In this document: positions 2,604-17,157 of the stretch, piece by piece | Position numbering within the stretch: the stretch's first letter is position 1 | Layout: each line of letters starts with the position of its first letter | Virus record (IMG/VR): IMGVR_UViG_3300027754_000538 | Span: 1 to 20,243 of that record | Direction: 5' to 3' (one strand) | Source of the DNA: a virus | Length of the DNA stretch: 20,243 nucleotides | Translations under genes and position numbers: made by a program | The notes under the pieces: model-generated | Databases searched by the model: none | Seen by the model: only the letters and a program-made list of their open reading frames with translations | Told to the model about the DNA's origin: nothing

Positions 2604-3169
2604 TAGCTCAAGTTGCTGACAAGGGTGGCAGTAATTTTAGTACTTGATTGCACTGCATACACCAAACAATCAACCGATGCTGCTGCGGTGCTAAGTGTTG
2701 GTGCAGTACCACCAGAAAAGTCCCACTGCGAACCATAGGCCAATGTGCGGCTACCGGTGCCATCCTGCGTAATCCAGATACAACCAGATTGACCAGCAGT
2801 TTGGTTCGATGGGTTAGCTAATGTGCGGTTACCGCCAAGCGTAACTGAGAAGTTATTGGCTGCCGCAAAATCTGCGGTGATCGTTGCCCCATCGGTCAAT
2901 GCGCTGATAGCGCCGCGTTGCGCTGCCGTAAAGCTTTGCGCGACATCGGTTTTAGCGGTATCAACGTCGTAGCCTTGGACGGTTACGCCAATATCAGCGG
3001 AATCTAAAAAGGCTTGCTCTGTTAAGACGCCACCTTCAACTACATAAACTTTATTTTGATCTGTTGCGTAACATATTTCACCTTCTGCTAAGTCAAGGAT
3101 ACTAGCGTTTAAATTTGCATACGTGCCCCTGGCGATTCTTACAGGTGTTCTAGTGGATGGAGTGGCCAT
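2603..3169 (-). CDS. Short tail-fibre protein with N-terminal virion-attachment-like module
   Basis: A 188-residue protein. Residues about 10-50 (RIARGTYANL, LAEGEICYATDQNKVYVVEGG) form the short beta module seen at the N-terminus of many phage tail-fibre proteins, in a variant with 'RGT...L..GEI.YATD...VYV'. The C-terminal part (about 95-188) is Gly/Thr/Ser-rich, predicted beta, and contains 'TLGGNRTLANPSNQTAGQSG', a pattern frequent in phage fibres and possibly a trimerising or receptor-facing tip. The gene starts with ATG overlapping the upstream stop by one base and ends one base into the ATG of the large adhesin, so the three fibre genes are very likely co-translated. It is probably part of the host-contact apparatus; which protein it attaches to cannot be told from sequence. 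Confidence 0.75.
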   Translation of the reverse strand: MATPSTRTPVRIARGTYANLNASILDLAEGEICYATDQNKVYVVEGGVLTEQAFLDSADIGVTVQGYDVDTAKTDVAQSFTAAQRGAISALTDGATITADFAAANNFSVTLGGNRTLANPSNQTAGQSGCIWITQDGTGSRTLAYGSQWDFSGGTAPTLSTAAASVDCLVYAVQSSTKITATLVSNLS

Positions 3170-4050
3170 TAAACAAAGCTCCCGCCGTCTATTGTAATTG
3201 TAGTCGTAACTATGCTACTCCCGTTAGCAAAATTGCCACCATCAACAACGGTCGCACCTGCTGCTGTAGCCCAGCTCAAGGTGCCGCTGCCGTTAGTGCT
3301 TAATACCTGTGCAGCAGTGCCATCGGTTGCCGGTAACGTCCATAACACATCAGCCGCAATTGTTGCTGGTGCCTGAAATCCAACGTAGTTAGTGCCGTTT
3401 GCAGTTGCTTCGCGGAATCGTGCATCAACCTGATTATCTAAAATTACATTACCGGTAAGTGTGCCACCTGCTAATGGCAAGTTGTTGGATGCCGTACCAG
3501 TTAAAGCCGCTGTAATTGTGCCAGCCGTAAAGTTGCCGCTTGCATCCCTTGCGACAATTGCAGATGCAGTGTTGGCATCTGTAGCAGTAGTGGCGCTATT
3601 GCTGACCTTGCCAGCAGTGGCGATAGTTGCAAGTTTAGTGTCAGCAATGGCGGCAGACGCATTTATGTCTGCGTTGACGATTACGCCGCTAGCAATAGCG
3701 GTAACACCCGTGTTGCTTATGGTTACATCACCTGTTACTGCGGTGCTAGTCGCTACGTTTGCGCTGCTGCCTAGCACAATGTTGCCGCTGGTTAGCGTGG
3801 CAAGCTTGCTGTAAGCAATGGCAGCACCCGATGCAATATCAGCATTAACAAATGGGTAAGTGCTTACCTGGCTCCATGGCGTATAGCTCAGTGATGTCCA
3901 AGCTGTGCTGCCAGTGCCAAGTTTTATTTTGCTAGTATCAGATTCAATCCCAATCTCGCCTGCTAGCAGTGTTGGGTTTGCACTTGTCCAGTTAGCAGCA
4001 GTATCACGCCGCTGCGCCATCTTAACTGGAACAGTAGTAGCAGTTGGCAT
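3169..4050 (-). CDS. Tail-fibre protein with Mtd-like N-terminal module and internal repeats
   Basis: A 293-residue protein. Residues about 8-58 carry a widespread phage fibre N-terminal module: QRRDTAANWTSANPTLLAGE, then IGIESDT and KIKLGTGSTAWTSLSY. It resembles the N-terminal domain of the major tropism determinant family. The centre is Ala/Thr/Ser-rich and repetitive. Two copies of 'VNADI.A(S/G)AAIA..KLAT' begin near residues 68 and 124, separated by strands such as GNIVLGSSANVATST and ATDANTASAIVARDASGNF. This is the composition of a beta-helical, trimeric fibre shaft. The C-terminal part ('TNYVGFQAPATIAADVLWTL', then 'VLSTNGSGTLSWA') is also typical of phage fibres. ATG lies 4 nt after the previous stop. 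Role in adsorption is inferred from domain type and position after the tail-tip gene. Confidence 0.8.
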   Translation of the reverse strand: MPTATTVPVKMAQRRDTAANWTSANPTLLAGEIGIESDTSKIKLGTGSTAWTSLSYTPWSQVSTYPFVNADIASGAAIAYSKLATLTSGNIVLGSSANVATSTAVTGDVTISNTGVTAIASGVIVNADINASAAIADTKLATIATAGKVSNSATTATDANTASAIVARDASGNFTAGTITAALTGTASNNLPLAGGTLTGNVILDNQVDARFREATANGTNYVGFQAPATIAADVLWTLPATDGTAAQVLSTNGSGTLSWATAAGATVVDGGNFANGSSIVTTTITIDGGSFV

Positions 4051-7341: not shown

Positions 7342-7799
7342 AACCTTACCGGCGCCCCAATAAGTAAAGTAGTAAATTTACGCGGCGGCACCTGAGCACC
7401 TACCGGGCTAAGGGCTGAGCTTAAATTAATTGATAGCTCCGTGAAATTACCTGAAATTTTCGACACTTCGCCAACATAAGTTGCAATCAATGACTGGGTA
7501 GATATTGGTGCCGATTGAGATAATCGTGTATCGAACTCATACATTTTAATCTCACATAATCTATTGTTATTCAAAGCAGCTTTAAAGACGCTGATTGCTG
7601 TAGTAGTAGCTGGCACTGTGATTGTAACATCTGAACCGGCGGGGCTGCCAGCCATCATCCCATCGGCATTAAATGGATTATAAGACCAAGACGCAGAATC
7701 TAAAGTAATAGTTTGATTAATGTAATATGCCTGCCATCTTACATACGTCTGGCTGTTATCGTAAATTCTTAGATATTGGCTTTGGCCGCGATTGCTCAT
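7338..7799 (-). CDS. Small tail-tip protein between tape measure and J-like protein
   Basis: A 153-residue, mostly beta protein. Visible segments are YLRIYDNSQTYVRWQAYYIN, CEIKMYEFDTRLSQSAPIST and a C-terminal VPPRKFTTLLIGAPVRL. The end recalls distal-tail/minor-tail proteins (BR0599/DUF2163-like), whose C-terminus has a 'VP.R.FT' strand, but I would not insist on the family. It overlaps both neighbours in ATGA junctions. In lambda-like tails this position is filled by M, L, K and I. Here a single gene occupies it, so this product probably forms the ring between tube and J-like tip. No peptidase motif (NlpC/P60 or JAB) is visible. Confidence 0.7.
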   Translation of the reverse strand: MSNRGQSQYLRIYDNSQTYVRWQAYYINQTITLDSASWSYNPFNADGMMAGSPAGSDVTITVPATTTAISVFKAALNNNRLCEIKMYEFDTRLSQSAPISTQSLIATYVGEVSKISGNFTELSINLSSALSPVGAQVPPRKFTTLLIGAPVRL

Positions 7800-9718
7800 G
7801 CGCCTACCCCTTGATAACTGCGTCCGCCGAATGTACGGTTATTAAGCAGTAAAGAATCTGTTAGCATTGTAAGTGCTTTTTCCATATCAGCAATTGTTAC
7901 ATATTGTTGATTGTTTTGTTGCAGTACTGGGCCAGTTTGTATTTGTATCATAGGCGAAAATGACCTGCTGCTACCTTGACTTTGGATGGCTGCATTGCCA
8001 CGCATGCCACCAAGGTAGTTAGCGCTTGCACGCGCCATCTTAGATTCAGGAATTATATATTCGCGCTCACCGCCTTCGCCTACCATCGCAAGGGTAGGAC
8101 CATTCACAACGCCGCCTTGAGCGAATTTAGGTAATTGAGGCTGGGGTAAATATGAAATCTGTGGCAACTTTAAAGTTGCTAACGCTGCATTAGCGCCTTT
8201 GATTACGTTATTAATTGCGTTTACTACACTGCTTATAGCATTACCAATGCCATTTAAAATGCTGTTCACTATGCCTTTCATCGTTTGCATAGCAATTTCA
8301 AATGGTTTTGTAATTGCATCTTTAATTGATTGGAAAGCGTTACCAATATTTTTTATCATGCCGTTTATCGTATCTTGCACCGGCTTAACAAATTTTTCAC
8401 TTATAAAAGTTGTAACTGCTGTAAATACTTTTTTGGCTGGTTCTATAAAATTTGTATTAATATATTGGTACGCCGCAGTTGCAAAGCCTGATATAGCCGT
8501 TGCCGTTGGCTTAATAAAATTTTCAACAATATATTGCGTTAACGCTGCGTGAGCGTCCATGTAAGGCTTGATAAAATTATTGTATATCATTGTAAAAAAT
8601 TGTTTATACAATTCAACAATGGCATTAATCGCTGCGCCAACTTGGTCGCGGAATGCGTAAATTGCAACGCCTGCTGCTATTAGCAATGCTGCCCAGCCTA
8701 CGGGGCCCGTGAATATCCCAACCAAAATAGTTCCTAGCCCGCTTAATGCGCTGCCAATAGCAGCCACAACAGGCCCTAAAGCACCAAGTGACCCGGCAAT
8801 TGTGGCAAATACGCCGCCGCCTGCAAACAGCCCGCCTAATGTTGTAAAAATACTAATAATTGCATTTATGGCTGGCGCTAATACAACGAACGCTGCCACC
8901 AATCCTGCTATCCCGCCAATTATAGTTTGCACTGGTTCTGGCAATTGGCTAAACCCTGTTGCTGCTGCGGCAATGCCTTCAGCTAGTTTTGTGATTGTTG
9001 GCAACAATGCTGTTACAGCTTGATTGAATGGTCCAGATATTGATGATGTTACCTTGTTAATAGAATCATTAAATTTATCTGCTGCTTCGGCCATATCTTT
9101 ATCAATTGTTGCCGAATATCCATTTAATGCCTCTTTACCTTCATTCAACATAGGAATTATATTAGCGCCTGATTTGCCAAATATCTCCATTGCTAATGCT
9201 GTTTTTTCTACGCCATCTGGCATCTTAGAAAACTTATCAGCTAAATCCAATATGATGGCATCAACGCCACGAATCTTGCCTTGCGCATCAGTTGAACTAA
9301 CTCCAATAGATTTTAATGCTTCATTTGTTTTTGATGCCGGGTCAACTATGCCTTTAGCTAGCTTACCCATTGATTTTGCTACTTCTTCTAAACTGCTGCC
9401 ACTATCATTAGCAGCCTTGCCAAATTTATCCAGCGTTTCAACCCCAACACCAGTGCGCTGGCTTAAATCATTTAAATTATCTGCTGCATCAATTGACCGC
9501 TTACCTAAGGCGCCAAGGCCCGCTAACCCAATCGCAGGCACCAATCCACCTAATGAGCTAGTTAAACCACCTGCGGCGCCTTTAACTCGATTGAATGTGC
9601 CCTGCAAACCACCTGCCTGCTTATCAACACGGTCTAAACTTTTTTCTAGCCCATTAATGGATGCAATGCCATCGACACTAGCTTGGATTTTTACAGCAGC
9701 ATTCATATCAAGCGCCAT
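7796..9718 (-). CDS. Tape-measure protein
   Basis: A 640-residue protein that sets tail length and is probably injected with DNA. The N-terminal 250 residues are helical, with 'LNDLSQRTGVGVETLDKFGKAA' and 'ALAMEIFGKSGANIIPMLNEG', characteristic of phage tape measures. Residues about 262-355 are strongly hydrophobic (several possible membrane segments: IIGGIAGLVAAFVVLAPAINA, GWAALLIAAGVAIYAF). Residues 381-474 contain short repeats with [NK]F[IV][KE]P at 381, 400, 423 and 442 and a related TKPF near 470. The C-terminal 'KFAQGGVVNGPTLAMVGEGG' and 'EREYIIPESKM' (about 531-561) is the classic tape-measure end motif. ATG is preceded by a strong AGGAGG 7 nt upstream and lies 2 nt after the chaperone stop. 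The length predicts a short to medium tail (about 95 nm at 1.5 angstroms per residue, inference). Confidence 0.95.
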   Translation of the reverse strand: MALDMNAAVKIQASVDGIASINGLEKSLDRVDKQAGGLQGTFNRVKGAAGGLTSSLGGLVPAIGLAGLGALGKRSIDAADNLNDLSQRTGVGVETLDKFGKAANDSGSSLEEVAKSMGKLAKGIVDPASKTNEALKSIGVSSTDAQGKIRGVDAIILDLADKFSKMPDGVEKTALAMEIFGKSGANIIPMLNEGKEALNGYSATIDKDMAEAADKFNDSINKVTSSISGPFNQAVTALLPTITKLAEGIAAAATGFSQLPEPVQTIIGGIAGLVAAFVVLAPAINAIISIFTTLGGLFAGGGVFATIAGSLGALGPVVAAIGSALSGLGTILVGIFTGPVGWAALLIAAGVAIYAFRDQVGAAINAIVELYKQFFTMIYNNFIKPYMDAHAALTQYIVENFIKPTATAISGFATAAYQYINTNFIEPAKKVFTAVTTFISEKFVKPVQDTINGMIKNIGNAFQSIKDAITKPFEIAMQTMKGIVNSILNGIGNAISSVVNAINNVIKGANAALATLKLPQISYLPQPQLPKFAQGGVVNGPTLAMVGEGGEREYIIPESKMARASANYLGGMRGNAAIQSQGSSRSFSPMIQIQTGPVLQQNNQQYVTIADMEKALTMLTDSLLLNNRTFGGRSYQGVGA

Positions 9719-9720
9719 GA

Positions 9721-10044
9721 TCAGCCCTCCTTTTTGTGAATAGCTGCCAAAATTTCGCCTTCAATGATTTGCATATCAGCAAGCACAGCGGCTGGGTTGG
9801 CTATCTTATACAGTCTAAACACCCACGCCACTGCTGTGTAATCTAACCCTACCGGTCCATTTGGACCCATTCGCCATTGGGTTTGACATGTAAGGAATGC
9901 CTGCATTGCTGGCCATGCCTCAGGTTCAATCTCAAAATACTCTGGTTCAGGCGTATGGTCAAGTTGAACACCTAACACCGCAGCATCATCAAGCGTTTTA
10001 TCAATCACGCCGCCCTTAACCCAATGCTGGGCAGCGCCTATTAG
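9721..10044 (-). CDS. Tail-assembly chaperone, T part expressed by -1 frameshift (DUF1799-like)
   Basis: This frame is the C-terminal part of a G-T fusion, comparable to lambda gpGT. It stays open from CTA at 10044, directly after the slippery site, through 12 codons (LIGAAQHWVKGG) and the 95 codons that a GTG at 10008 would give. The body contains 'PEAWPAMQAFLTCQTQWRMG' and 'GPVGLDYTAVAWVF', which match the DUF1799 tail-protein pattern (W...W.A...F....TQWR.G..G..GLDY). If made by frameshift, the product is 233 residues: 126 from the upstream frame plus 107. The GTG at 10008 has no clear Shine-Dalgarno and lies at the base of the predicted stem, so I judge independent initiation less likely. 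The T part recruits tail-tube subunits around the tape measure in known systems. Confidence 0.83.
   Translation of the reverse strand, partial: LIGAAQHWVKGGVIDKTLDDAAVLGVQLDHTPEPEYFEIEPEAWPAMQAFLTCQTQWRMGPNGPVGLDYTAVAWVFRLYKIANPAAVLADMQIIEGEILAAIHKKEG
9726..9731 (-). promoter_or_regulatory. Strong Shine-Dalgarno of the tape-measure gene
   Basis: On the minus strand AGGAGG stands 7 nt before the ATG at 9718, inside the last codons of the upstream chaperone frame. Most other starts in this operon have weak sites and rely on stop/start overlap, so the tape measure seems to be independently and efficiently initiated. Confidence 0.85.
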
Positions 10045-10050
10045 TTTTTT
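10008..10050 (-). promoter_or_regulatory. Programmed -1 ribosomal frameshift signal
   Basis: On the minus strand the heptamer A AAA AAC (10050-10044) lies in the zero frame of the chaperone gene as GCA AAA AAC TAA, so both tRNAs can re-pair after a -1 slip. A 7-nt spacer (TAATAGG) separates it from an 8-bp stem: CGCTGCCC (10036-10029) with GGGCGGCG (10015-10008), one U-G wobble and a 13-nt loop. The zero-frame stop follows the heptamer at once, whereas the -1 frame continues as CTA ATA GGC into the DUF1799-like frame. Heptamer, spacing, stem and location between G-like and T-like tail genes all match known phage signals. Confidence 0.87.
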
Positions 10051-10421
10051 GCTTTACTTCCAGTCAAACTATCAAAATAAGCCACAATAATAGCTGCTGC
10101 TACTGTTGGGATATCAAGCAATTGTTCTTTTAATTCTTCAGAAAATAAAATTTCATCGCCATCGCCATCTACTACACCAGACCATCCAACCAATAATTCA
10201 TCGGCAATTGACTGGTCACTGATGCCGCCTTCTAACGGTTCATTGCGTTCTGCTGCTTTAATACGTGTTTGCACATCAACTTGAATTTCATTAATGCGTG
10301 CTTGTGGCAACCGTTTAAATTGAGCATCAAAGGTTTGCTTTTCAAACTTGCCGCCATCAGCCGGTAACTTAACGCTAACCGGCCAGCTATAGCTGCTGGA
10401 TTGCTTTAATACAAATGCCAT
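10041..10421 (-). CDS. Tail-assembly chaperone, G-like part
   Basis: A 126-residue protein with the pattern 'FVLKQSSSYSWPVSVKLPADGG', 'KFEKQTFDAQFKRLPQARI' and 'LLVGWSGVVDGDGDEILFSEELKEQLLDIPTV'. This matches a widespread siphovirus tail-assembly chaperone family; in that family the protein coats the tape measure before tube polymerisation and is not kept in the mature virion. It comes between the tail-tube protein and the tape measure, the usual position. The last codons AAA AAC before TAA form the slippery heptamer, so a fraction of ribosomes should continue into the T part. The ATG is 8 nt after the tube-protein stop with no evident Shine-Dalgarno. Confidence 0.85.
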   Translation of the reverse strand: MAFVLKQSSSYSWPVSVKLPADGGKFEKQTFDAQFKRLPQARINEIQVDVQTRIKAAERNEPLEGGISDQSIADELLVGWSGVVDGDGDEILFSEELKEQLLDIPTVAAAIIVAYFDSLTGSKAKN

Positions 10422-10429
10422 TGAATGGT

Positions 10430-11590
10430 TTAAGCAAAGGTTAGTGAAACTTCGTCATTGCCTGCGCTAGTAGGAATAGCGGCAAATGGCAAGCTTAGCA
10501 TTTGGATGCCATCGCTATCTTCGTATGAAGGGTTGCCAATGTCAACCTTTGGCGCCAATAGCGTAACGCGGTTGCCAGCAGTTGTACCATGCAACATGGT
10601 TAAAATGCCGGTGGTATCATCGTTGGCAATAGTAAAGAAATCTTTTTGCGCAATTGTCGGCGCTTCAATCATGCAAGTGCCTTCAACAGCACGGTTAGTA
10701 ATAATTACTGATTTATCGCAACCAACCAGTTCCCGATAAACGGTTTCATTCGCCATATCAAGTTCAAGCGACATCAAGCAACCGCTGTAACCCAAGATTG
10801 AAAACGCGGTAGTGCTACCAGCTTTAAAGATTAAAGGCGTTGCTTGGTTGGTATATGTAGTGGCTGGTGCGGCTGTATCAGTAGGAGCATTGTAAATGCC
10901 AAGCATTGTAAATTCAATGGTTGGTATCTCGCCTACTTCAGCATTTAATACAAATGTACCGCGTGCGCCTGTGATAACATGCAACACGCCATCATTATTA
11001 AAGTAAATTGATGCACTATCAAAGCTTGCGCTAACTGGCTTGTAACCTACGTTAGCTGCAATGCTATAAGTGCTAGAAGCACCTGGCGTAAATGTTGCGG
11101 TTGATTTTTGCACCGTTGCAACTTTAGTGCTACCTACATAATCAGTAATTACGCCAACACCACCGCTACCAGTGCCGCCTGTAATCGTAATAATCATGCC
11201 ATTATAAATATCATCTGTTGCGCTAGCAGCAGCCGCAAGCGTAATGCTGCCAGCAGAGCCCGCCTGGGCGGTGCCGGTAATAGCAGCAGCAGTTGTGGTT
11301 TCAGCCATTCCGCACGCCTTCAGCAGGCTGCTAAAACGTGGTGCTGTAGCAGCAGTACCAGAACCTGCTAACTCAACTTGGAATGTAATGCTAACGCGGG
11401 TGTTAGCTAGCAACTGGTCGCTATTGCCAAGATAAGGGCGAATCAAATCACGGCTAACAACATCAGCCTCAATTGGTGTAATTTCTAACTCCTTAACCAG
11501 TATGGCGTCAGTTCCGGCGGGGCTTGAATCCGTCCCGTAGGTTGCTTCCGTCTTCGCCAGAATCAGGCGTTTGCGAGTTAGTAGGACCAT
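10430..11590 (-). CDS. Major tail-tube protein
   Basis: A 386-residue structural protein, expected to assemble as stacked hexamer rings of the tail tube. The start LTRKRLILAKTEATYGTDSS and 'LEITPIEADVVSRDLIRPYLG' fit the siphovirus tube-protein family (Phage_tube_2-like). The tube fold seems to continue after residue about 180 (YKPVSASFDSASIYFNNDG, GARGTFVLNAEVGEIPTIEF). Residues about 107-178 are an inserted domain rich in Gly/Thr/Ala (GSITLAAAASATDD, GMIITITGGTGSGG, ATFTPGASSTYSI) that recurs in phage surface proteins and may project from the tail. The ATG has a GAGGA-type site about 8 nt upstream. This start overlaps the preceding 56-codon gene by 83 nt. I find no sheath gene beside it, which argues for a non-contractile tail. 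Confidence 0.88.
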   Translation of the reverse strand: MVLLTRKRLILAKTEATYGTDSSPAGTDAILVKELEITPIEADVVSRDLIRPYLGNSDQLLANTRVSITFQVELAGSGTAATAPRFSSLLKACGMAETTTAAAITGTAQAGSAGSITLAAAASATDDIYNGMIITITGGTGSGGVGVITDYVGSTKVATVQKSTATFTPGASSTYSIAANVGYKPVSASFDSASIYFNNDGVLHVITGARGTFVLNAEVGEIPTIEFTMLGIYNAPTDTAAPATTYTNQATPLIFKAGSTTAFSILGYSGCLMSLELDMANETVYRELVGCDKSVIITNRAVEGTCMIEAPTIAQKDFFTIANDDTTGILTMLHGTTAGNRVTLLAPKVDIGNPSYEDSDGIQMLSLPFAAIPTSAGNDEVSLTFA

Positions 11591-12117: not shown

Positions 12118-12744
12118 TTATGCAGATGCAACTTGCACTATGGTACAGATAACACCGGGAATGCTTGGATGCGCAAACGGGCTGGTTTGCGCTGCCTCAG
12201 CATGGATATAAGCAGCAGCATTGCTAGTAGCCCAAATCAACTCAAGATAGTCAGCAGCATCTAGCTTTAACACAAAATTAACCGTACCAATTACATTGCC
12301 ATCAACTCCGCCATGGCTGGACGTAATACTGAATCTGCTATCAGATGCAACTACATTAATACCATTTCTGCGTAACCATACATTTATATCATGTATTGAA
12401 GTATCGCTATTCGTAAATTGTATTGAAAATGTAATGCTATAAACGCCAGCATGGGCAAATGTAATTGTTGTATTTGACGCAATACTAATGCCGCTATTGT
12501 CTAAATCAGCACTACGCAATAAAATTGTAGTCGGTGTATTTACTGTTGCGGTTTGTGATGTTAAATCCCAAAACGATGCCCAATAGCCTGGGCAGCCAAA
12601 ATATGGGAGCTTATTCCAATTTGTCAGGCCATCACCTACCTTTACATTTCTTGCATGGTCTTCAACCGCTGGCTCTCCCGCCATCAGTATTGGATTCAAT
12701 GATGACCATTGATTGCGTGTATTAGTCTTAAAATGACTGCTCAT
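12118..12744 (-). CDS. Virion protein with Mtd-like N-terminus and C1q/TNF-like jelly roll
   Basis: A 208-residue protein. Residues about 9-50 (NQWSSLNPILMAGEPAVED, VKVGDGLTNWNKLPYFG) repeat the N-terminal module seen in the tail fibre at 3169-4050. Residues about 75-208 look like a C1q/TNF-type jelly roll: 'TTITFAHAGVYSITFSIQFTN', 'INVWLRRNGINVVASDS', 'VNFVLKLDAADYLELIWATS', then a final strand (GVICTIVQVAS). Such domains form trimers and bind surface ligands. It is odd here: it is embedded between head-tail joining and terminator genes instead of among the tail-tip genes, so it could be a head decoration, neck whisker or collar adhesin. ATG overlaps the preceding stop (ATGA). Confidence 0.8.
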   Translation of the reverse strand: MSSHFKTNTRNQWSSLNPILMAGEPAVEDHARNVKVGDGLTNWNKLPYFGCPGYWASFWDLTSQTATVNTPTTILLRSADLDNSGISIASNTTITFAHAGVYSITFSIQFTNSDTSIHDINVWLRRNGINVVASDSRFSITSSHGGVDGNVIGTVNFVLKLDAADYLELIWATSNAAAYIHAEAAQTSPFAHPSIPGVICTIVQVASA

Positions 12745-13580: not shown

Positions 13581-15641
13581 TCAGAGGGTGTTGTTGCCAC
13601 GGCTGAATGATTCAGGGTGACGAACAGCAATGTCACAATCTTGCATCGCTACAACACGCACAGTACCAGAGGTGCTATGTGTGTAAGGGTCAACCATCAA
13701 ATCCAAGCCAGAGAAGTAACCAATGATTAAGTCGGCAAAGTTGCCAAACCACAAATCATTAGATGCGACTTGGTTAGACAAGATGCCGCGATAGCCGTTA
13801 ACTAAATCGCCTTCCATCACAAACAAACCTGAACCAGTGTCCTTGGTCTTAGTCTTCAGAGCACCGCGCATAGCAGCATTCATCAAATACACAGGGCTGC
13901 CGGTCAATGCATTAGCGCCTGCTACATCGCTTTCAAGTGCTACCACTTCAGCAAATGTAGGGGTGTCCGCAGCAAAGTCTTCAGTGCCAACGCCAGTTGT
14001 TAGCTTGAGACCTAGTGGCTCGCTGCTATTGCCGGTGCCATAAAGGCCAGCAACGTCAATCTTGAGTGCCAATACACGGGCAAGATCATTGCGTACCATG
14101 TTCTCAACGTCGATGCTGGATTGCAGCATCAGGCGGCGGCTGTAATCAGTGAAAGCTGCAACCGTGCGCGGTGTCAGGCTTACTTGATCAACCGTTTGCT
14201 GGCTTTCAGTAGGTGCGCCAGACTCAGCTACCCAATAAGCAGTAGCAGCGCCAGATTGGCGAGGAATTGCAACGTTACCAACCAAACCGGTTAGCACAGT
14301 AGCGCCTGCTTGGTCTAGTGCGGATGCGTGACGCAGCAAGTCAATAAAGCTGCCAGCATCCAAATCAGTAGCAACTAAGTTACCACCAGCAGATGCAGTG
14401 CCTACAGACAAATCACGGCGCAGTACATCTTGGGGAATTGTGATACCACGTGATTGGCGGCCCAATTTTGCAGCCGCAGCATCAGATGCTTCAATCTCAA
14501 ATGCAGCCGATTCACGCGCAGCGCGGTCGGTTGGATTTGCTAAATAGTTGATGGCACGCAAAAACGAAAAGCTGCGGCTTTCCTTTTCGCTCATGCCGAT
14601 GTCGGCAACGCTCATAGTCACAGGCTCCTGATAGGTGTTTATTTTGTCTAGAACAGCAGCACGTGCCTCGTCGATTGAACAACAAGATTCGATTAGCTGT
14701 TGGCCGAGGTCGGCCATCCCATGCTTAGTGCATAGAGAATTGATACTGGAGATGCGTGAGCGTTCGGCCTCAACGGCTTCGGCCCGCACCACGGCCAGAT
14801 CTGGAGTGGCGGATTCCATGTTAGGAAGGGGTTCTGGGGTTGGTGCTGCCGGAGCAGCGGGGTTAGTCAATAGCAAGGATCTTCCAATCCCTACTGTTTT
14901 GTCAGCCGGTATAGAAACCATTGAGATTTCATACGGACTCCATGCAGTGGCAACATAGTCACCACCGCCGCGCTCTTCCATCTTATCAATGGAATAGCCG
15001 AAGGATACATTCCTAAGAATGCCATCCTTCACATCAGCTAAAATCTCTTGCGCAAATTCATTCTTGCTAAACCGAACACGTGCATAACCGCGCCTTGCTT
15101 TATCATCAATCCTTGCTGCTTCTACTACACCAATAACACGATCTACATCATGATTAAATAGCAATGGTGCGCCATCGTTTAATCGGCTAAGGTCAGCAGC
15201 ACTAACATCATGGCTTAATACTTCATTACCAAAATATCTAGCAACTGGATGTTCAGAACTAAACGGAAATTCATAAGTGCGGTCTTCTACCTCACTAAAT
15301 GCTGTCATCTCAGCGCGGTGGAATTTACCTGTCATGCTGCGGCCTGTTGCTTCTTCAAATTCAATCGGGTCATACTCATGCTCAATTAACCAGTTAAGCG
15401 CTTCATCTACTGTAAATTGCTCTAGGTCAAACCGTATTGCTTGCAGTTCGCTTGTATCACCTTTAATGCCATAGATAAAATCAATGCCCGGCCCGCCTGC
15501 GTCATCTTCACGCGCAAAATCGTCATACTGCTCTGGATCTGTTAGCCGTGCTGCGTGCTCGTTTGGGTATGGGCGCTTTTGGTCCATTACGCTTTTATTC
15601 AATGATGCCTCTATTGTAACTGCTTTAATCATCGCTTTCAT
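13581..15641 (-). CDS. Prohead protease - scaffold - major capsid polyprotein (HK97-type)
   Basis: A 686-residue fusion with three jobs. Residues about 26-96 form a phage module with 'PNEHAARLTDPEQY', 'GIDFIYGIKG' and 'IRFDLEQFTVDEALNWLIEHE'. Residues about 105-256 are a prohead protease of HK97 type: likely catalytic His164 in LLFNHD and Ser213 in LRNVSFGYS. Residues about 276-342 are charged and helical, like a scaffold/delta domain. Residues 343-686 are the HK97-fold capsid (SAGGNLVATDLDAGSFIDLL, DYSRRLMLQSSIDVENMVRND, GILSNQVASNDLWFGNFADL). I chose ATG 15641 (Shine-Dalgarno GGAG 7 nt upstream), overlapping the portal end by 17 nt; ATG 15632 is also possible. A longer frame from 15713 reads into the portal gene with no family support. 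Self-cleavage probably releases capsid during maturation. Confidence 0.92.
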   Translation of the reverse strand: MKAMIKAVTIEASLNKSVMDQKRPYPNEHAARLTDPEQYDDFAREDDAGGPGIDFIYGIKGDTSELQAIRFDLEQFTVDEALNWLIEHEYDPIEFEEATGRSMTGKFHRAEMTAFSEVEDRTYEFPFSSEHPVARYFGNEVLSHDVSAADLSRLNDGAPLLFNHDVDRVIGVVEAARIDDKARRGYARVRFSKNEFAQEILADVKDGILRNVSFGYSIDKMEERGGGDYVATAWSPYEISMVSIPADKTVGIGRSLLLTNPAAPAAPTPEPLPNMESATPDLAVVRAEAVEAERSRISSINSLCTKHGMADLGQQLIESCCSIDEARAAVLDKINTYQEPVTMSVADIGMSEKESRSFSFLRAINYLANPTDRAARESAAFEIEASDAAAAKLGRQSRGITIPQDVLRRDLSVGTASAGGNLVATDLDAGSFIDLLRHASALDQAGATVLTGLVGNVAIPRQSGAATAYWVAESGAPTESQQTVDQVSLTPRTVAAFTDYSRRLMLQSSIDVENMVRNDLARVLALKIDVAGLYGTGNSSEPLGLKLTTGVGTEDFAADTPTFAEVVALESDVAGANALTGSPVYLMNAAMRGALKTKTKDTGSGLFVMEGDLVNGYRGILSNQVASNDLWFGNFADLIIGYFSGLDLMVDPYTHSTSGTVRVVAMQDCDIAVRHPESFSRGNNTL
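14613..14629 (-). promoter_or_regulatory. Internal ribosome-binding site and ATG for free capsid protein
   Basis: Within the polyprotein gene the minus strand carries AGGAG (14629-14625), 9 nt, then ATG at 14615, in frame at codon 343 (MSVADIGMSEKES). This is better placed than most starts of the operon. Translation from here would give a 344-residue capsid without protease or scaffold segment, comparable to internal starts in other phage protease genes. Coincidence is possible, since AGGAG arises easily, but the position just where the capsid part begins makes it likely functional. Confidence 0.65.
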
Positions 15642-17157
15642 CTTCCAACTCCACTGCTGGCAGCTCCGTTTCTTCAAATGGTTGCATTGCAGACTGCGCA
15701 CCGCCACCTGCATTTACTTCACTTGGGTCGGTGTCAGTAACAATATTCATCTCATCTAGCATCGCTAGCTCAGCCTGACGGCCTAGCAATACTGCATCAA
15801 GATCGCCGCCTTGCTCTGTAATCACCTGCGCTAACGTCTTGAACCCACATCGCACTGCTGTTTTATAAGCATCAACTTCTTTTTGTGGGTCCACCCATTC
15901 CCATGTACGTGGCACCCATTTACTAGCGCGGTAACGGTCTGGATTTAGCTCATAGCCCGGCAGCCGCAGCTCACCGCTTAACACTGCCATCTCAAGCCAG
16001 TTATCAAATACCTGTTGATGAAAATTTTCTATCATATAACGTTGCAGTACACGGTACGTGTCGCGCTCCTCTAGCAGGCTTAGCCTGCTGCTGCTGTAAT
16101 TACTTTCTGAGAAATTCTTGCTGATGCTTTCAAAGCTAACGCCGATGCCAGCCGCTACCGCACGCAACATGCTACGCGTAAATGGTTCAAGCTGACCATC
16201 AGGCGAATTAAGATCTGGCACCGTTACTGATTCGCCCGGTGCTAAATACTTAAATACACCTGGAGTAAACTCGCTAACGCGTTCATTATCATAAATTTCA
16301 TCACCTACCAACTCGCCTTCAGGTGATTGGATGAAACCCATCAGGGCGCTGCTAGCGCGTGCACGTACAACCTCAGCCTCCTCATACCCTTGCAACATAT
16401 GCAAACGCATTAATGCCGATGCAAACCATGTAACACCACGCGTCTGGCCTGGCCTTTCTGGTAAAAACAAATGTATTACTTCATTTGCTGGCACACGTAA
16501 CTTCTTGCCGTTAGTCCGTGGATTACCAGCATATGTATCACCGGGATGATTAGCATAAAAATGATAAGCTTGTGGCCTTAAATAACTATCAATTTCAATT
16601 CCCATCCGCACTGTGTTACCAGTTGCGGCCTGGGGTATATCATCATCAATCAAATAATCAGCTTCCAGCACCTGCAATGCAAATGGAATTCGACTATCAC
16701 CAAATGGTTTACGTATCATACGAACAAATACTTCGCCGCTTTCAGCTAAACTCCGCGCTAATAACCGTTCAATATCATGAAAACCTAAAATGCCGCTTAC
16801 ATCACAACGGCTTTTGTTACCCCATATTTCCCATGCTTCATGGATTTGCCCATTAATTGCTTCATCTAATTTGCCGCCGCGTTGCATCCGTACCTGCCCT
16901 TGATGGCGAATGCCATGTCCAATCACATTATTTTGAATAGCACGCAATGCCTGCCGTGCATAGTCATTATCACGGCACAATTGCCTAGCGCGATTACGTA
17001 ATGCCTTAAAGCTAGACTTAATCTCACTATCGGCGCTGGTTGCACTTGTTATCCAGTCAGCCGTCAACCGGTTTATCCTTGCGCCTTGATATGCACGTTG
17101 CCGCCCTTTGATTGGCGCAAATCCCATTGCCTTGAATAGCTGCGTGCGTAAGCCCAT
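15625..17157 (-). CDS. Portal protein (lambda family)
   Basis: A 510-residue protein forming the dodecameric DNA gate at one capsid vertex, where terminase docks. Typical portal features: N-terminal 'ALRNRARQLCRDNDYARQAL' and 'IQNNVIGHGIRHQGQ' , 'FHDIERLLARSLAESGEVFVR', 'LQVLEADYLIDD', 'ANEVIHLFLPERPGQTRGVT', then 'MLRAVAAGIGVSFESISKNF' and 'NYSSSRLSLLEERDTYRVLQ', the hallmark of Phage_portal_2. The C-terminus is acidic (ELEDESDD). The ATG directly follows the previous stop with no gap. The end overlaps the start of the protease-capsid gene, so expression of the two is probably linked. Confidence 0.95.
   Translation of the reverse strand: MGLRTQLFKAMGFAPIKGRQRAYQGARINRLTADWITSATSADSEIKSSFKALRNRARQLCRDNDYARQALRAIQNNVIGHGIRHQGQVRMQRGGKLDEAINGQIHEAWEIWGNKSRCDVSGILGFHDIERLLARSLAESGEVFVRMIRKPFGDSRIPFALQVLEADYLIDDDIPQAATGNTVRMGIEIDSYLRPQAYHFYANHPGDTYAGNPRTNGKKLRVPANEVIHLFLPERPGQTRGVTWFASALMRLHMLQGYEEAEVVRARASSALMGFIQSPEGELVGDEIYDNERVSEFTPGVFKYLAPGESVTVPDLNSPDGQLEPFTRSMLRAVAAGIGVSFESISKNFSESNYSSSRLSLLEERDTYRVLQRYMIENFHQQVFDNWLEMAVLSGELRLPGYELNPDRYRASKWVPRTWEWVDPQKEVDAYKTAVRCGFKTLAQVITEQGGDLDAVLLGRQAELAMLDEMNIVTDTDPSEVNAGGGAQSAMQPFEETELPAVELEDESDD

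Follow-up and report, generated by a model that had tools for sequence, protein, structure and literature searches.

The tail-chaperone locus on the minus strand of the window, the whole virus record of 20,243 bases analysed here, almost certainly directs programmed −1 ribosomal frameshifting of the type known from lambda G/GT. We observed the elements of such a site and found them in phase and conserved; the gene order and the conservation of the protein across the junction were likewise observed. Read on the minus strand, the junction is ...AAA GCA AAA AAC TAA TAGG CGCTGCCC AGCATTGGGTTAA GGGCGGCG TG..., and the features of the locus were the following:

10430..11590, minus strand: major tail (tube) protein (PF18906 Phage_tube_2, 4.9e-19), upstream neighbour of the G-like gene
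10041..10421, minus strand: G-like gene for a predicted tail assembly chaperone of 126 aa, with the C-terminal end ...GSKAKN, then TAA
10057..10061, minus strand: Shine-Dalgarno-like GGAAG, a possible upstream stimulator, weak in the window (z −0.8)
10044..10050, minus strand: slippery heptamer A AAA AAC, read in the phase of the G-like gene (GCA AAA AAC), its X XXY YYZ pattern kept in relatives
10037..10043, minus strand: 7-nt spacer TAATAGG, which opens with the 0-frame stop TAA
10029..10036, minus strand: 5' arm of the stem, CGCTGCCC, read from the sequence and submitted to folding, recoding and covariation tests
10016..10028, minus strand: 13-nt loop, AGCATTGGGTTAA, read from the sequence and from folding
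10008..10015, minus strand: 3' arm of the stem, GGGCGGCG, read from the sequence and submitted to folding, recoding and covariation tests
10006..10008, minus strand: GTG, the mechanical start of a separate 95-aa ORF, whose first G is the last base of the stem
9721..10044, minus strand: T-like −1 frame of 107 codons and a stop, matching DUF1799 (PF08809, 8.9e-15, 55.1 bits against a gathering cut-off of 26), C-terminal part of a predicted 233-aa GT fusion
7796..9718, minus strand: tape measure protein (PhageMin_Tail, phrog_3981 at 2.5e-71, TIGR01760), downstream neighbour of the T-like frame

The position given in the initial annotation for the heptamer, in phase just before the stop of the G-like gene, was exact to the base (10050-10044), with TAA directly 3' of it at 10043-10041. 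As letters alone the string is not rare, since the window holds 5 copies of AAAAAAC where 5.0 are expected, and this would suit a chance origin, in which an A-rich gene end happens to lie ahead of an unrelated gene. Its context, however, is unique within the window. The 19 window genes (6326 codons) hold 20 in-phase XXXYYYZ sites, of which none but the heptamer at 10050-10044 stands at a gene end, and none but it enters a long −1 frame (107 aa; the next longest is 25 aa).

Conservation told further against chance. The slippery site was kept in all 80 of the 80 loci found with the first (G) protein, with A AAA AAC at the same place and TAA or TGA directly after it, or TTC TAG in one clade. When loci were found with T instead, all examined rows (64/64) carried A AAA AAC or, in a few, G GGA AAC, once properly anchored; in L262, L264, L265 and L267 the site was present after re-anchoring. 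The G GGA AAC form was found in Rhodobacter phage RC1 and Pseudomonas phage phiPMW, and the heptamer was retained out to proteobacterial contigs. These two counts give the unbiased frequency of the heptamer; a further set of 70 sequences (<90% identical) was chosen by slippery-site presence and gauges codon choice, not heptamer frequency. Within this set, the codon before Lys always ended in A where the site was A AAA AAC, across eight residues (Ala, Arg, Thr, Val, Ile, Leu, Glu and Gln), while A-ending codons make up only 14% in these genes and Lys is written as AAA in 28%. With G GGA AAC, the preceding codon ended in G (CGG, CTG). The swap of AAAAAAC for GGGAAAC preserves the X XXY YYZ logic: Lys becomes Gly and the preceding codon changes along with it. 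The wobble choices over the 70 sequences reached a nominal log10 P of −111, a figure that shared ancestry makes less extreme in truth. Because the heptamer is conserved in relatives, retained as it was in all those examined, its arrangement is far beyond chance, and we attach practically no probability to an accidental origin.

The same variants bear on whether RNA polymerase, slipping on the run of A, might join the two frames in place of the ribosome, an alternative that we hold to be exceedingly unlikely. A run of eight A at the slip site in L094 and L095, two loci beyond the 64 rows, would favour it, but nearly all other sequences have just six A and then C. A run of six A is short for transcriptional slippage. 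The GGGAAAC variants have no homopolymer of such length, and an in-phase X XXY YYZ together with a downstream hairpin are ribosomal features.

In the distant DUF1799 homologues of the Klebsiella phages SmellyBerry and GH-K3, no canonical heptamer was detected at the junction; the slippery-site rule therefore covers this tail-chaperone family and not all DUF1799 proteins. At the Webervirus G/DUF1799 junction (L268 1440-1580, L271 1395-1520) the sequence reads GCAAAAGTTTAA, with no canonical X XXY YYZ and an open −1 frame, and a different shift signal may be used there.

Past the slip site, the −1 frame stayed open for 107 codons (10044-9724) through the predicted fusion junction AKN-LIGAA, and its PF08809 score of 55.1 bits bore out the DUF1799-like protein that had been proposed. 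Base variation tracked the −1 frame, whose third positions were the most variable (base entropy by codon position 0.75/0.91/1.39). When T was read from the slip site, L1 and A4 were invariant and W8 near-invariant, all of them upstream of the GTG, which is codon 12. An AF2 model of T placed a confident helix at residues 2-9, likewise upstream of the GTG (pLDDT about 93 there); the model was good overall (pLDDT 92), yet fold comparison gave no clear match.

These residues weigh on the question whether T might be made on its own from the GTG (10008-10006), through initiation that is either independent or coupled, with no functional frameshift. The GTG does lie at the stem base, as had been noted, and in the window AAGGG ahead of it offers a Shine-Dalgarno sequence (duplex −4.7 kcal/mol); the 95-aa ORF is what a mechanical gene finder would report, and the two genes are deposited as such in S-CBS1, S-CBS3 and S-LBS1. 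Conserved residues upstream of the GTG speak against a separate T, however, as does the codon itself: of 70 diverged relatives, just 10 had a start codon there, and the other positions of the second frame showed no conserved start in the 70. A separate T would also leave the retained heptamer unexplained, and the stem would be expected to partly mask initiation at the GTG. Loss of the heptamer in relatives with retained separate starts would have contradicted a frameshift; the heptamer was kept instead, and the scarcity of starts at the GTG position favours the frameshift. We regard a separate T as very unlikely, and from these comparisons the GTG is probably not the main start of T. Independent initiation at the GTG as the main route was rejected, the codon not being conserved (10/70). 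Since the window's GTG has a plausible Shine-Dalgarno sequence, it could nevertheless add some separately initiated T.

The hairpin predicted after the heptamer gave a more varied picture. Spacer (7 nt), stem (8 bp) and loop (13 nt) were as claimed: positions 10036-10029 pair with 10015-10008, with one G-U, and the stem was present in the MFE fold; its z was −1.6 against dinucleotide shuffles and −2.3 when the comparison was with synonymously recoded −1 frames. In relatives, folding after the slip site beat synonymous recodings in 81% (mean z −1.31), and a folding scan over both genes peaked once, directly behind the slip site (mean z −1.29), and gave −0.69 to +0.35 elsewhere. The detail of the hairpin varied among clades, L057 and its relatives having a 10-bp stem with a 4-nt loop. 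Among the sequences of the subclade that carries GAGGCTGCGCG, and of its neighbours, many lacked a strong hairpin, which was weak or absent in, for example, L036, L043, L045, L048 and L066. Because of this subclade, a hairpin would not be strictly required in the tail-chaperone family.

Pair counts for the window's stem over 24 sequences gave 81.8% paired cells and three pairs in which both bases had changed. No shuffle reached the observed number of paired cells or the observed covariation score, but a register 3 nt away scores too, since the arms are Ala-Ala and Gly-Gly codons and partly complementary anyway; the covariation was positive, not clean. The alignment of homologues that had been called for thus upheld the heptamer in full and the stem in part, and by sequence comparison the hairpin is the less conserved of the two.

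Upstream of the heptamer, many relatives carried a Shine-Dalgarno-like element, a refinement that the initial annotation had missed. A Shine-Dalgarno core lay within 22 nt upstream of the heptamer in 39 of the 70 relatives, against 14.4 expected from synonymous choice, and in 35/70 stronger cores ended 7-8 nt before it. The spacing given for −1 stimulatory Shine-Dalgarno elements is 9-14 nt (PMC5009743). A putative stimulatory role of the element is plausible. One might tentatively go further and see a three-part signal, made up of a Shine-Dalgarno-like element 7-8 nt upstream, the heptamer and the hairpin, whose parts trade off between clades, the lineages that lack a strong hairpin leaning on the upstream element or on an unseen structure; we consider this possible but rather doubtful.

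The assignment of the upstream protein was supported at the family level. Phage_TAC_4 (PF08748) was matched by 18 of the 19 members of the G-like family at E 0.01 or better (best 1.9e-7), although the window's own protein, at 17.8 bits, fell under the Pfam cut-off of 21.1; by sequence, this argues for a tail assembly chaperone. The moderate model of G (pLDDT 75) gave in fold comparison the HK97 chaperone 2ob9 only as a weak match (Z 2.7, rmsd 5.2, 80 residues), tied with unrelated chains. Solved structures searched by sequence held no convincing relative of G or T, and the NCBIfam search returned nothing for either. Profile searches of the window gave the gene order tail tube - G - T - tape measure. 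The lambda-type gpG/gpGT logic put forward earlier is supported by this order, the Phage_TAC_4 and DUF1799 matches, the retention of the heptamer, protein conservation upstream of the GTG and the want of a conserved second start.

The phage itself is probably a relative of the cyanosiphoviruses, kin of Synechococcus viruses, because its terminase matched best those of the Synechococcus phages S-CBS1 and S-CBS3 (about 48% identity).

Some further genes of the window may be recorded. In a single ORF of 710 aa (13581-15713, minus strand), a prohead protease (Peptidase_S78) appears fused to an HK97-type major capsid domain. A fibre-like or BclA_C-like gene (12118-12744, minus strand) lies between head-closure-like and tail-terminator genes, and a fibre protein occupies the corresponding place in S-CBS1 and S-CBS3. 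The protein at 3169-4050 (minus strand) carries an Mtd_N domain, the N-terminus of the major tropism determinant; an mtd gene is present in S-CBS1 and S-CBS3 too. The Rfam search of the window matched no family.

That ribosomes slip here, how often they do so and what G and GT do is inferred, as follows. Most ribosomes would make the 126-aa G-like chaperone and terminate at TAA. A minority would be paused on A AAA AAC by the hairpin, possibly aided in many relatives by the upstream Shine-Dalgarno-like contact, and would slip back by one base into the DUF1799 frame, yielding the rarer 233-aa GT fusion (...AKN-LIGAA...). By analogy with lambda, G would bind the tape measure protein, with tail tube subunits brought in by the T part of GT.

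Several consequences follow for annotation. The DUF1799 frame in this tail-chaperone family is assigned to the T part of the predicted GT fusion, and the two-gene annotation of the cultivated cyanosiphoviruses S-CBS1, S-CBS3 and S-LBS1 is corrected. The 70 sequences (<90% identical) form a well-sampled set with separate variation of the slippery site, the hairpin and the upstream element. How tail chaperone frameshifting is generally understood does not change.

Among the closest known systems, S-CBS1, S-CBS3 and S-LBS1 have homologous G and T proteins and A AAA AAC directly before the stop, and in them, as had been anticipated for such a pair, G and T were deposited as two separate genes. The S-LBS1 paper mentions no frameshift, and in the accessible literature on DUF1799 the shift was not described. 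For S-LBS1 (L099), the annotation names the chaperone (3001-3381) a cobalamin/siderophore ABC ATPase and places an ORF on the opposite strand (3342-3515) over the G/T junction; both look like misannotations.

Like the present locus, the cassette of E. coli dnaX has an A-rich heptamer followed by a hairpin; an upstream Shine-Dalgarno-like element is a further common point in about half of the relatives. Unlike in the dnaX −1 cassette, however, this element is 7-8 nt from the heptamer (versus the 9-14 nt reported for −1 stimulators, PMC5009743) and weak in the window, and dnaX is a different gene with a different purpose. In Acinetobacter phage Loki, AAAAAAC was predicted right beside the stop of the tail chaperone gene (gp12/gp13; PMC5313236); the likeness to the window lies in AAAAAAC at the chaperone stop. 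For HK97-like chaperone genes, frameshifting was measured at 6-7% (PMC3711429).

Lambda is a further close system. Its G/GT tail assembly chaperone frameshift was reportedly described by Xu, Hendrix and Duda in 2004 and is reviewed in PMC5009743. Like the window, lambda has the order tail tube - G - T - tape measure, and a slippery heptamer close to where its first frame ends leads to a −1 fusion. In the window, unlike in lambda, which slips on G GGA AAG, A AAA AAC stands directly before the stop and is accompanied by a hairpin, and the T domain is DUF1799. Lambda makes gpG and, via a low-level −1 shift, gpGT, an arrangement widely conserved in long-tailed phages (PMC5009743), and frameshifting in tail chaperone genes is established for lambda and many of these phages (PMC5009743, PMC5313236). 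The lambda-type arrangement found here is already a well-known kind of feature.
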